This document shows, one piece after another, positions 11,396 to 14,837 of a DNA stretch of 64,000 nucleotides (its first letter is position 1; each line of letters begins with the position of its first letter). The notes under the pieces were generated by a model. That model was not told the origin of the DNA, made no database searches, and saw only the letters and a list, made by a program, of their open reading frames with translations. Source of the DNA: Candidatus Izemoplasma sp. (GTDB lineage Bacteria > Bacillota_I > Bacilli_A > Izemoplasmatales > Izemoplasmataceae); assembly GCA_036172455.1 (NCBI GenBank), contig JAXKVY010000002.1:186001-250000 (forward strand). The letters are read 5' to 3'. The position numbers and the translations under genes were made by a program.

Positions 11396-12394
11396 ATGAA
11401 ACGTATATTATCAGGTATTCAACCAACAGGGTCTTTAAATATAGGGACCTATTTGGGAAGTGTAAAAAACTTTGTTAAATTACAGAATGACATGCCAGAT
11501 TATGAATTCTTTATCTTTATTGCGGACTTACATGCGATCACTGTCCCTAAAGATAAACAAAAACTAAGAAAACTCATCAAAGAACTTGCTGCGTTATATA
11601 TTGCGTGCGGGCTTGATCCAGAGCGTGTAAACTTATTTATTCAATCAGAAGTGCCTGCGCATGGACAAATGGCATATTTATTACAGTGTAATGCGTATAT
11701 TGGTGAACTTGAGCGGATGACGCAATATAAAGATAAGTCTCGCAATCAAGAAACGGGTGTAACAGTGGGGTTATTTACTTATCCAACATTAATGGCCGCA
11801 GATATTTTACTATATGATGCGGAATATGTTCCCGTTGGGCAAGACCAAAAACAACATTTAGAGTTAACACGCGATATTGCACAACGTGTTAATAATAAAT
11901 ATAATGATATTTTCACTGTCCCAAAACCTTTAATCGCAGAGGTTGGCGCAAAGATTCAAAGTTTATCAGAACCCACTAAAAAAATGAGTAAGTCAGATGA
12001 CAACGTCAAGTCTCGGATTAACTTATTAGACCCAGAAAACATCATCAAAAAACGCATCCGTTCGGCTGTGACAGATTCATTAGGAACCATCAAATATGAT
12101 CCGGAAAACCGTGCTGGTATTTCAAACCTAATGACTATTTACTCTCTTATTGCTGGACTATCATTTGATGACATTGAAAAAAAATATGCTGATAAAGGAT
12201 ACAAAGAATTTAAAGATGACTTAGGTGAAATTGTCTACCAAGAATTAAAACCAATCCAAGAACGATACAACGAATTGATCAACTCTAAAGAATTAGATGA
12301 AATCCTAAACAAAGGCCAAGAACGGGCATTCAAAGTATCACAAAAGAAACTATATAAGTTTATGCATCGTATTGGACTAGGAAGAAAACGCTAG
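11396..12394 (+). CDS. trpS: Tryptophanyl-tRNA synthetase
   Basis: A 332-residue class I aminoacyl-tRNA synthetase that charges tRNA-Trp. The HIGH-like motif appears as GSLNIGTYLGSV near residue 17, and the KMSKS loop as KKMSKSDDNVKSR near residue 200. GGAGG precedes the ATG. A Trp T-box directly upstream controls it. The TAG stop overlaps the GTG start of the following regulator gene by one base, which suggests read-through of transcription into the regulator. Confidence 0.97.
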   Translation: MKRILSGIQPTGSLNIGTYLGSVKNFVKLQNDMPDYEFFIFIADLHAITVPKDKQKLRKLIKELAALYIACGLDPERVNLFIQSEVPAHGQMAYLLQCNAYIGELERMTQYKDKSRNQETGVTVGLFTYPTLMAADILLYDAEYVPVGQDQKQHLELTRDIAQRVNNKYNDIFTVPKPLIAEVGAKIQSLSEPTKKMSKSDDNVKSRINLLDPENIIKKRIRSAVTDSLGTIKYDPENRAGISNLMTIYSLIAGLSFDDIEKKYADKGYKEFKDDLGEIVYQELKPIQERYNELINSKELDEILNKGQERAFKVSQKKLYKFMHRIGLGRKR

Positions 12395-13305
12395 TGGCAG
12401 ACAATAACTTTGCTCAGTTCATAGAAGAACTGAGAATTTCACGCAATTTAAGTCGAGAAGACTTTGTGGATGGTATAATTTCAACCAGACAATATCAGCG
12501 ATTCTTAAACGGCGAATCATCAATTAAGAATAATAATATGACAGATTTACTTGAACGATTAGAAATCAATTCTATTGATATTTACTATCAGTATTTAGCA
12601 ACTAATGATGATTATATAAAAAAACTAACAGATGCCTACCAGGCATACTTTAATAGAAATTTATTGAAAACAACACAAATACTATCTAATATCAACTCTG
12701 ATAATATTTCGAACGATTATTACTTAAAGTACTATCGCTTTCTTAAAATCAATACTGATATACAACTAAAAAAAGTGCCTACATCTATGGGAATGGAAAA
12801 ACTTAAAGAATTAGTGGATTATCCGAATATATTAGAACATAAAATTCTTAATTTTATTGAAATTAATATTCTTATAAGTTTATCTGATTATATTGTAACT
12901 GAGGAAAAAGATTTTAGAATAGCTAATTATTTATTTGATAAATTAAAAAGTAATCCCAAATTACCAAATCTATCACAGATTAGTTACAAACCTGCACTAT
13001 ACTCATATGTTGCTAGGACGTTGGGTCATATTAAAGAATATGAAAAGTCACTACAAATCGCTAAAACCGGATTAGAAATTTGCGAAAAATATCAGATTTA
13101 TGCGGGTGTAAATTCTTTGCTTTACTATCATGCTTTAGGTGAGAAATATGTATATGATGATAAGCGACATCTTGAGACTCTACGTAGATTATATTTTAGT
13201 TTGCATATTTTTAATGAAACACCAAGGACCAAGACCTACAAGAAGTTTATACAAAAAAACTTTAGTGTCAGTTTTGAAGACCTATTTGAGATAAAAAATG
13301 CATAA
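12394..13305 (+). CDS. HTH-TPR (RRNPP-type) regulator, copy 1
   Basis: A 303-residue protein. Residues 5-60 form a HTH_3-type DNA-binding domain (FAQFIEELRISRNLSREDFV, then GIISTRQYQRFLNGE); the rest is all-helical and resembles the TPR region of PlcR/Rgg/PrgX-type regulators, which bind short peptides. It is a paralogue of the gene at 13926-14837: both are 303 residues and share SRED-xx-DGIIS-xx-QY-x-R-x-L-x-G-xx-SI-xx-N. It starts with GTG overlapping the trpS stop, with AGGAAG upstream, and has no promoter of its own that I can see. No peptide gene is adjacent except the one at 13697-13837. The target genes are unknown. Confidence 0.8.
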   Translation: MADNNFAQFIEELRISRNLSREDFVDGIISTRQYQRFLNGESSIKNNNMTDLLERLEINSIDIYYQYLATNDDYIKKLTDAYQAYFNRNLLKTTQILSNINSDNISNDYYLKYYRFLKINTDIQLKKVPTSMGMEKLKELVDYPNILEHKILNFIEINILISLSDYIVTEEKDFRIANYLFDKLKSNPKLPNLSQISYKPALYSYVARTLGHIKEYEKSLQIAKTGLEICEKYQIYAGVNSLLYYHALGEKYVYDDKRHLETLRRLYFSLHIFNETPRTKTYKKFIQKNFSVSFEDLFEIKNA

Positions 13306-13330
13306 AAAAAGAGGTTTCACCTCTTTTTTT
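13304..13330. terminator. Bidirectional terminator
   Basis: Perfect 12-bp stem AAAAAAAGAGGT / ACCTCTTTTTTT with loop TTC, between regulator copy 1 (plus) and the 91-residue gene (minus). Confidence 0.9.
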
Positions 13331-13604
13331 ACGCGAACTTAAACATAAACTCTTTTAATAATCTTTGTGTTTTATAATGAGAATCAACATTAATGACCCA
13401 TCTATTTTCTTCTATTGCGGCAATGTGTTCTTCATACCATTCGTTTAATTTAGATATCATCAGACGAATCATTTCTACTTCTTCATTTTGTATTGCTTGT
13501 TTCAATTTATTTAGGTAACTAACTACATAGGGATCACATGAATACTGCTTAATCGTTCCTAACATCCCTTCATACTCAATTTTTAACTCTTGAATTGCTG
13601 TCAT
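13329..13604 (-). CDS. Helical protein of unknown function in the peptide-regulator locus
   Basis: A 91-residue protein, predicted helical by its pattern of charged and hydrophobic residues, with no signal peptide, no membrane segment and a single Cys. I do not recognise its family. A strong AGGAGG precedes the ATG. It lies 92 bases downstream of the small peptide gene on the same strand, with no terminator seen between them, so it could be co-transcribed and thus be a target or modulator of the peptide system. It could also be driven by its own weak promoter in the 92-base gap, which holds the palindrome AACTTT-GA-AAAGTT. Confidence 0.7.
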   Translation of the reverse strand: MTAIQELKIEYEGMLGTIKQYSCDPYVVSYLNKLKQAIQNEEVEMIRLMISKLNEWYEEHIAAIEENRWVINVDSHYKTQRLLKEFMFKFA

Positions 13605-13696
13605 CGTAATTCCTCCTTATAATTTTTTTCATACTTAAAGACAAAACTTTGAAAAGTTAACAATTTATAGTAAAATATATGTGGGTCTCTTAATTC

Positions 13697-13837
13697 TTAT
13701 AATGGCAATGTAGGCATTGGTCCTGGTAAATCTTCAAACTCATTATCTGCATCTGCGTTTACATTAAATTTTACTGCTTGCCCTAAGATTAACCCTACAG
13801 CGAATAATACTACCATTGCTTTTTTAATTTTTTTCAT
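13697..13837 (-). CDS. Small exported peptide, candidate signalling pheromone precursor
   Basis: A 46-codon gene with AAGGAG nine bases before the ATG. The N-terminus has a Lys-rich stretch (MKKIKK) and a hydrophobic core (AMVVLFAVGLILG), typical of a secretion signal, with a plausible cleavage after VNA. The remaining acidic tail ends in DLPGPMPTLPL. Size and layout match PapR-type precursors (about 48 residues, C-terminal active heptapeptide). It is transcribed away from the adjacent HTH-TPR regulator (13926-14837), the usual arrangement for RRNPP pheromone-receptor pairs. The mature form is probably a C-terminal 5-10 residue peptide; which one is inference. No homologue is known to me. Confidence 0.72.
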   Translation of the reverse strand: MKKIKKAMVVLFAVGLILGQAVKFNVNADADNEFEDLPGPMPTLPL

Positions 13838-13869
13838 TTTTATCAGCTCCTTGTCAATATTTTATATGT

Positions 13870-13875
13870 ATTATA
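13870..13875 (-). promoter_or_regulatory. -10 box of the peptide gene
   Basis: TATAAT on the minus strand, 33 bases before the ATG. The -35 position (13893-13898) has no consensus hexamer and is occupied by the 14-bp palindrome, as in regulator-dependent promoters. Confidence 0.5.
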
Positions 13876-13887
13876 CCAAAAAGAAAA

Positions 13888-13901
13888 GGTCATATATGAC
13901 C
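13888..13901. promoter_or_regulatory. Perfect palindrome, candidate operator of the peptide-receptor locus
   Basis: GGTCATATATGACC is its own reverse complement. It lies between the divergent peptide gene and regulator copy 2, covering the -35 zone of the peptide promoter and just upstream of the regulator's ribosome site. Confidence 0.6.
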
Positions 13902-13925
13902 CATATTTTAAAAGGAGGTAATTCC

Positions 13926-14837
13926 ATGAGTGAACAAACAAAAGAATTTGGCTTGTTTATTGACAGTTTACGTACTGATAGACAAATAAGTCGAGAAGAC
14001 TTATGTGATGGAATTATTTCTTTGAGTCAGTATAAAAGATACCTCAGAGGTACTGCATCAATACCAAATAACAAGCTATTACAGTTGGCAGATAAGTTAA
14101 AACTAAGTATTAGCGAAATTCATACCTTGTTCAATAAACAATATAACCAACAATATAATCAAATACTTGATATTTATAACGATTTAAAATTAAGTAAATT
14201 TGAAATAGCATTAAAAAGAGCCTTAAAAGTCAAAAAGGATGTTATAGTTAGTTCTACCAATAAAATGTTTATTGATTATTGTATTATCAAAGCGCAATAC
14301 CATTTAGATCTTGCATCAAAGGTTCAAGCTCTTGATGTTTATTCAGATATGATAAATTATCCTGCATGTATGGATAATTTATCATTTAATCGAATTGAGT
14401 TAGCAATTTTAATAGAAATTGTACAAATAGCTGCGAGCATGGAAAACTACGAACCCACTAACTTATTATACAAGGTTTTAATTTCTGAAGATTTTGAGTA
14501 TATAACAAGTAATGACAGATCATTTGTACCATCATTATATTACACTTTAGCACTATCTTTGAAAGTACAGAGAAAGTACCAGGAAGTCTTAGACATTTGC
14601 AATCTTGGAATCGAATATTCATTAACATACGAAACCTCAAATGCTCTTGCTCATCTACTCTATATGAAAGCCTCTACGCATGATGATTTAGGTGACACAG
14701 AGCAAGCGTTAAAAGTTGCTAAAAAAGCTTTTATGCAATTGATCATTGAAGATAAGCCTGAAAAATTCAATAGTTTTAACAAGTTGTTTGAAAATAGATT
14801 CAATATGAAAGTAAGTGACATAATAAAAATCGATTGA
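13926..14837 (+). CDS. HTH-TPR (RRNPP-type) regulator, copy 2
   Basis: A 303-residue protein with an N-terminal HTH_3 domain (FGLFIDSLRTDRQISREDLC, then GIISLSQYKRYLRGT, about residues 8-60) and a helical repeat region to the C-terminus. TPR-like units are visible near VQALDVYSDMINYP, YQEVLDICNLGIEYS and GDTEQALKVAKKAF. The best start is ATG 13926, with AAGGAGG upstream. RRNPP proteins bind an imported peptide in the TPR groove and change DNA binding. The divergent small exported peptide (13697-13837) is the natural ligand candidate. Paralogous to the gene at 12394 and of identical length, so the pair probably arose by duplication. Confidence 0.83.
   Translation: MSEQTKEFGLFIDSLRTDRQISREDLCDGIISLSQYKRYLRGTASIPNNKLLQLADKLKLSISEIHTLFNKQYNQQYNQILDIYNDLKLSKFEIALKRALKVKKDVIVSSTNKMFIDYCIIKAQYHLDLASKVQALDVYSDMINYPACMDNLSFNRIELAILIEIVQIAASMENYEPTNLLYKVLISEDFEYITSNDRSFVPSLYYTLALSLKVQRKYQEVLDICNLGIEYSLTYETSNALAHLLYMKASTHDDLGDTEQALKVAKKAFMQLIIEDKPEKFNSFNKLFENRFNMKVSDIIKID

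Follow-up and report, generated by a model that had tools for sequence, protein, structure and literature searches.

A candidate RRNPP-type peptide quorum-sensing cassette with an SpbK-domain partner in a Candidatus Izemoplasmatales bacterium

The window analysed here, a 64-kb stretch taken from the 1.69-Mb genome (G000) of a marine relative of mycoplasmas, carries a group of genes that we regard, with a probability of roughly 86%, as an RRNPP-type peptide quorum-sensing cassette of a Candidatus (Ca.) Izemoplasmatales bacterium, in which a propeptide operon is activated by the receptor R2. The locus begins with R1 (12394..13305, + strand), an HTH-TPR regulator of 303 aa whose GTG start overlaps the trpS stop and which has no propeptide of its own. 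R1 converges tail to tail with a gene for a 91-aa protein (13329..13604, − strand) on a hairpin flanked by A and T runs (13304..13330), recognised by sequence inspection and likely to be a bidirectional terminator. This 91-aa protein is homologous to the SpbK N-terminal domain (a four-helix bundle) and stands alone; its gene is the second of the propeptide operon, codirectional with the propeptide gene and 92 bp 3' of it. The propeptide gene itself (13697..13837, − strand) starts with ATG and specifies 46 aa, MKKIKKAMVVLFAVGLILGQAVKFNVNADADNEFEDLPGPMPTLPL, comprising an MKKIKK start, a hydrophobic core, a likely signal peptidase cut at VNA/DADNEF and a Pro-rich tail, ...DLPGPMPTLPL. It is preceded on its strand by a Shine-Dalgarno sequence AAGGAG (13847..13852, also from sequence inspection) and a −10-like hexamer TAAAAT (13859..13864); a second −10-like hexamer, TATAAT, lies at 13870-13875. 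The perfect palindrome GGTCATATATGACC (13888..13901), a candidate R2 operator, separates these elements from R2 (13926..14837, + strand), the HTH-TPR receptor of 303 aa that we regard as cognate to the propeptide, the two divergent start codons being 88 bp apart. R1 and R2 are 620 bp apart and share 25% identity (E 1.7e-21), and no Rfam family has been found in the region. An earlier sequence-only reading of this DNA had recognised the two paralogous regulators of equal length and the peptide gene divergent from one of them, which has been borne out in full; it had overlooked the 91-aa third gene, the palindrome and the dozens of related cassettes described below.

Conservation of the small gene has been followed first of all in loci with an R2 orthologue. 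Complete R2 loci number eight including that of the window, and the other seven orthologues are 40-53% identical to the window R2. Named carriers of R2 orthologues are Candidatus Izimaplasma HR2 (classified by NCBI under Mollicutes, Ca. Izemoplasmatales), ZiA1 and other Izemoplasma or Mycoplasmatota bins. A divergent open reading frame (ORF) of 43-46 aa with an MKK start, a Shine-Dalgarno sequence and a hydrophobic core is present in 8/8 of these loci, and the frame has thus been kept wherever R2 occurs with its upstream region, rather than lost from relatives that keep the regulator. Together with the ATG, the AAGGAG, the Lys-rich start and the hydrophobic core, its persistence at the same place in eight genomes establishes the exported-type 46-aa ORF as a real gene, as had been claimed from the sequence. 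The tails vary over the eight loci (LPGPMPTLPL in the window, ALPAETDN, TPEGGNN, PSEPVAV, LPLPVY, SPRPY, LPVGDVTS and LLPIRY), and the 91-aa protein is 67-81% identical across them. A fast-changing peptide and receptor next to a constant partner are the expected pattern of diverging pherotypes with a fixed output, which is how the R2-type loci may be understood.

Receptor-profile relatives extend well beyond these orthologues and have been detected in 53/90 genomes of the order (Ca. Izemoplasmatales) and, at a stricter threshold, in 63/395 sampled genomes of the class. When a divergent small ORF was defined blindly by an ATG, a Shine-Dalgarno sequence, a K/R-rich start and a hydrophobic core, a strict scan has found one upstream of 19/57 receptors and of 0/198 other long genes, which, along with the same ORF in eight genomes, shows that the small ORF is more than chance. 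With longer ORFs allowed, a divergent propeptide accompanies 44/69 order-level receptors that have at least 300 bp of upstream sequence; eight of those lacking one are R1-type genes beside trpS, and counterparts of R1 after trpS occur in G029, G031, G011, G025 and G013, as well as on broken contigs of G009 and G067. Most class-level receptor relatives likewise have a divergent propeptide, and many propeptides have, as read from the sequences, a D-F-x-D-x-x-x-P-E motif behind a shared V-x-A/D cut site. Two different genera have genomes with near-identical cassettes whose propeptide is ...GFDDVDLEEVVIESQ (L138, L139, L141), a pattern suggestive of horizontal transfer in the recent past. No R2 matches in phages or plasmids have been found.

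The fold of R2 places it among the known pheromone receptors. Its AlphaFold2 (AF2) model, built on 53 sequences, is all-helical with a pLDDT of 94.6, and a Foldseek search against the PDB has returned the PlcR:PapR:DNA complex 3u3w first (E 3e-8), then ComR, Rgg2, PrgX and Rgg3, the matches at E <1e-3 being PlcR, ComR, Rgg, PrgX and relatives. Independently of the model, the sequence profile of R2 matches Rgg2 at E 5e-10 and, over positions 3-274, PlcR at E 1.5e-8. Pfam and NCBIfam have given no above-cut-off family for the receptors except a generic HTH in some members, with a weak HTH_3 match in the receptor. Sequence match, AF2 model and Foldseek thus agree on an N-terminal HTH and a C-terminal TPR receptor domain, and the adjacent small propeptide gene with its predicted export signal supplies another hallmark of RRNPP systems. 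The refuting outcome named in the sequence-only reading, a confident structure lacking a peptide groove, has not arisen, the confident model being that of an RRNPP-type TPR receptor. Peptide distance tracks TPR distance over 61 receptor-peptide pairs (r 0.64), and still does so once the HTH domain is corrected for (partial r 0.32, p 0.0005).

Selection at the level of the peptide has become visible in about 20 sister systems, in which the product of the divergent gene repeats a unit of 13-20 residues in tandem, 3 to 10 times over (for example LDFDDPDLPELVN, in G053, and LDFDDEDFPEFIN). Adjacent units, which were not picked by exact match for this estimate, differ at 191 synonymous and only 12 nonsynonymous positions (pS 0.378, pN 0.0054, pN/pS 0.014), meaning that the DNA of the units has drifted apart and the peptide has stayed unchanged. 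The repeat units are under extreme purifying selection and amount to direct evidence of peptide function in the sister systems. Assemblies often break at repeat arrays, so that the counts of systems given here are lower bounds. Five contigs (L239, L240, L241, L151 and L188) stop beside an SpbK-NTD-like gene, apparently at a repeat propeptide, and systems of this type are consequently undercounted in draft genomes.

These arrays also bear on the question whether the small protein is a signal at all. Short hydrophobic peptides beside HTH regulators are also a feature of toxin-antitoxin and bacteriocin loci, and the window protein could on that ground be a secreted or membrane toxin, a bacteriocin or an anti-receptor that R2 merely regulates. 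We consider this very improbable, as the TPR domain co-diverges with the peptide tail, each propeptide of the sister systems repeats a single short and conserved unit, as expected of a processed signal, and the nearest folds to R2 are peptide-pheromone receptors.

The palindrome between propeptide and R2 is the candidate site through which R2 would act. A perfect 14-nt palindrome with at least six G/C has arisen in 6/2000 shuffles of this intergenic region. Comparison of loci has shown GTTCATATATGACC in most orthologues, GTCCATATATGACC in G009, GCTCATATGTGAGC in G013 and a degenerate form in G003, and CGACATATATGTCG occupies the corresponding position in a sister clade outside the order. In 16/16 loci checked, that clade included, the distance from the palindrome to the start of a −10-like hexamer on the propeptide strand (TAAAAT in the window) is exactly 23 nt, and no −35 hexamer has been seen on that strand in the loci examined. 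Class II activators bind near −42. The fixed spacing centres the palindrome near −42 of the predicted start site, the class II activator position, and from this geometry we infer that the propeptide operon is turned on by peptide-bound R2. The start of R2 itself follows the palindrome at a distance of 18-25 nt, which makes autorepression of R2 possible and lends something to a converse arrangement, in which peptide-free R2 would block the operon at the operator until released by the peptide, unlike the activation known for PlcR. Such a repressor is unlikely in view of the operator position near −42, the missing −35 hexamer and the fixed 23-nt spacing, which together make up an activation geometry.

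With R2 as an activator, the circuit would run as follows. The propeptide would be exported by the Sec route and cut at VNA/D, extracellular trimming would yield a short C-terminal pheromone within DADNEFEDLPGPMPTLPL, and this would be taken up again by an Opp-type transporter and bind the TPR domain of R2. R2 with peptide, seated on GGTCATATATGACC at about −42, would activate the propeptide operon, giving positive feedback and more SpbK-NTD-like protein. G000 encodes an M50 peptidase and also an SBP_bac_5 oligopeptide-binding lipoprotein that has a permease as its neighbour, all with a putative role in pheromone handling. The oligopeptide-binding lipoprotein (contig C1, L257:2502-6908) is unusually long at 1468 aa and contains bacterial Ig-like domains. 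Tentatively, this peptide may also be sensed by R1, which would then be a second receptor or an opposing one.

Several observations weigh against this account. The strongest evidence for selection comes from the repeat-bearing sister systems, the window peptide being single-copy. Propeptides of the R2 orthologues are only 17-41% identical to the window peptide over the whole ORF and their tails are very different, so that the mature pheromone is not readable by alignment; of the conserved peptide-regulator pair that the sequence-only reading had looked to in relatives, the pair itself has been recovered in 8/8 complete loci, with very different C-terminal residues. The TM-scores of R2 to solved receptors are moderate (0.4-0.6), and the partial correlation between peptide and TPR domain may partly reflect phylogeny. 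The export signal has been judged from the K-rich start and hydrophobicity, with signal peptidase and export calls made by eye, and export, processing, import, binding and activation are predicted steps. On the other side, the pheromone-receptor pair first proposed from the sequence is now strongly supported by gene conservation, the receptor fold, peptide-level selection in the sister systems, operator geometry and peptide-receptor co-divergence. The identity of the third gene has likewise been shown by computation.

That identity follows from profile searches. The window's 91-aa protein matches positions 33-120 of the 308 in the PADLOC spbK model (E 6.9e-20), a model matched by 28/28 members of its family, and its profile finds residues 25-114 of SpbK chain G of PDB 9phb (E 4e-16). 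Its AF2 model has a pLDDT of 95.4, and Foldseek with this model against the PDB has returned nothing significant, presumably because small helical bundles score poorly, so that the SpbK link rests on sequence profiles. A Pfam assignment to DUF515 fell below the cut-off and was dropped in favour of SpbK. SpbK is an anti-phage TIR NADase of ICEBs1 in Bacillus subtilis. Its N-terminal domain, made of four helices, attaches to YonE, the portal of SPbeta, at the clip domain, where F69 and F71 make contact (PMC12847820). This docking domain is the part of SpbK to which the 91-aa gene shows homology, with putative portal binding; the gene differs from SpbK in having neither the C-terminal TIR NADase domain nor the linker and in lying inside a pheromone operon. 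SpbK-NTD-like copies in the order all stand alone, in open frames of at most 159 aa. A fused SpbK relative of 375 aa is encoded in one other genome of the class (L236:1509-2636, G254); its SpbK-type middle domain lies between an additional N-terminal part and a C-terminal domain that is TIR-like. In four cassettes (L040:8116-8400, L041, L089 and L092) the SpbK-NTD-like gene has an HNH endonuclease-like gene after it, with Pfam confirming the HNH of L040. Two to three SpbK-NTD-like genes stand in tandem in L242 and L243 (G064), their products carrying charged extensions at the C-terminus, and the fetched stretches contain no receptor. The 91-aa protein has no match in plasmids and a single weak one in a faecal phage record that lacks annotation.

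Binding of phage portal proteins by the SpbK-NTD-like protein is a more tentative proposal than the cassette itself; the free domain may block portals, be a decoy or work inside the circuit. With odds somewhat short of even, the protein is instead unrelated to phages, SpbK having borrowed a general interaction bundle that here works within the circuit, for example as a receptor adaptor. The gene tracks the receptor family across genera without a TIR effector, and of the two portal-contact residues only position 69 is kept, being aromatic throughout the family (W in the window protein), and 71 varies, as this view would have it, whereas the score of all 28 members against the SpbK defence model speaks for a phage connection. 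The choice concerns the third gene alone, and either answer is compatible with a pheromone system.

A wider involvement in defence has been considered because the palindrome recurs in G000, once more in perfect form and four times with one mismatch (the reversed control pattern: none). A CBASS operon lies downstream of the second perfect copy and a PDC-M49 operon downstream of a one-mismatch copy, the two sharing a near-identical promoter. In relatives the same 26-bp module is found ahead of Gabija, CBASS, Thoeris and DUF4297 genes, and also of some genes without defence annotation; it is present in 5/10 R2-type genomes (including G065, with R2 cut at the contig end) against 3/80 others. These placements and this enrichment would fit a peptide-receptor pair that runs anti-phage operons through the same palindrome. 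We nevertheless hold such a regulon to be doubtful, since the module palindrome is mostly GGTCTTATATGACC with a −10 spacing of 22 instead of 23, the R2 operator of G013 has changed to GCTCATATGTGAGC with the G013 modules unchanged, the module occurs in three genomes without detected R2 (G014, G008 and G064), and its G000 copies are located at rlmH ends, of which one is a duplicated fragment. Direct R2 control of defence promoters was put to a site covariation test and, given G013, has not been supported. In G000 the module may be a recombination feature or site, or may answer to another regulator, and with the rlmH ends it possibly marks an SCC-like defence hotspot. Quite improbable, in our estimate, is the most far-reaching version, in which secreted, often multi-copy peptides tune anti-phage immunity lineage-wide in Mollicutes relatives, an SpbK domain that stands alone and binds portals increases in response to the pheromone, and the CBASS, Gabija and Thoeris operons of Izemoplasma are under the control of the same palindrome. 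As an observation in itself, several Izemoplasma genomes have a recurring terminator-palindrome-promoter module, GGTCTTATATGACCTGTTATTTATAA...TATAATATAAATAAG, ahead of CBASS, Gabija, Thoeris, PDC-M49 and DUF4297 genes (L252:5959-6030, which is G000 C5:68958; L253:4467; L285:2753 and 7970; L286, L284, L320 and L321). In five genomes the palindrome also lies between a butyrate kinase operon and a divergent membrane-protein operon, with no consistent −10 spacing (L254:3881, L277:2892, L279:2976, L281:3078, L288:2533).

Among the known systems, PlcR-PapR of the Bacillus cereus group comes closest, having an HTH-TPR activator and a Sec-type propeptide of similar sizes and a palindromic operator, as well as supplying the best Foldseek match of R2 and a profile match over nearly the whole protein. 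papR lies downstream of plcR and is codirectional with it. The window system departs from this in its upstream, divergent propeptide, an identity under 20% (18% in the structural alignment of R2 with PlcR), its SpbK-NTD-like partner and the repeat propeptides of its sister systems, which places it outside the PlcR-PapR subfamily as defined by a PlcR-like sequence with papR downstream. Rgg2/Rgg3-SHP and ComR-ComS of streptococci share the divergent or adjacent short peptide and HTH sequence similarity, and the two receptors around one pheromone operon resemble Rgg2/Rgg3, any opposition of R1 to R2 being tentative here. SHPs are exported by PptAB (PMC5167397), and the propeptides described here differ from them in a Sec-type signal and in a hydrophobic core after which come first the V-x-A/D site and then a tail that is polar and rich in Pro. 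Repeats in themselves are no novelty, as multiple identical pheromone copies per propeptide, up to 8, are known for Rap-Phr (Phr105) of Bacillus (PMC11343458). Rap has no HTH, and the present units are of 13-20 aa, in up to about 10 copies, with another receptor family and in another phylum.

Within the literature searched, which left most subscription-journal papers and all bioRxiv preprints outside, this type of pheromone sensing has been described for Bacillota, their plasmids and phages, and no paper has linked Izimaplasma, Izemoplasma or Acholeplasma to peptide quorum sensing; the words Tenericutes, Mollicutes and Mycoplasma are absent from three large RRNPP studies (PMC10075063, PMC9765709, PMC12700828). 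The finding is thus larger than the sequence-only reading had stated: relatives of the Mollicutes have a family of RRNPP-type systems in which an SpbK-domain partner recurs, well supported by computation and apparently undescribed. A receptor family with cognate propeptides among mycoplasma relatives widens the known range of such signalling, and since the repeat propeptides spell out the signal unit, candidate pheromones can be synthesised and assayed directly. The constant SpbK-like partner, in turn, links cell-cell signalling to a domain known solely for phage portal sensing.

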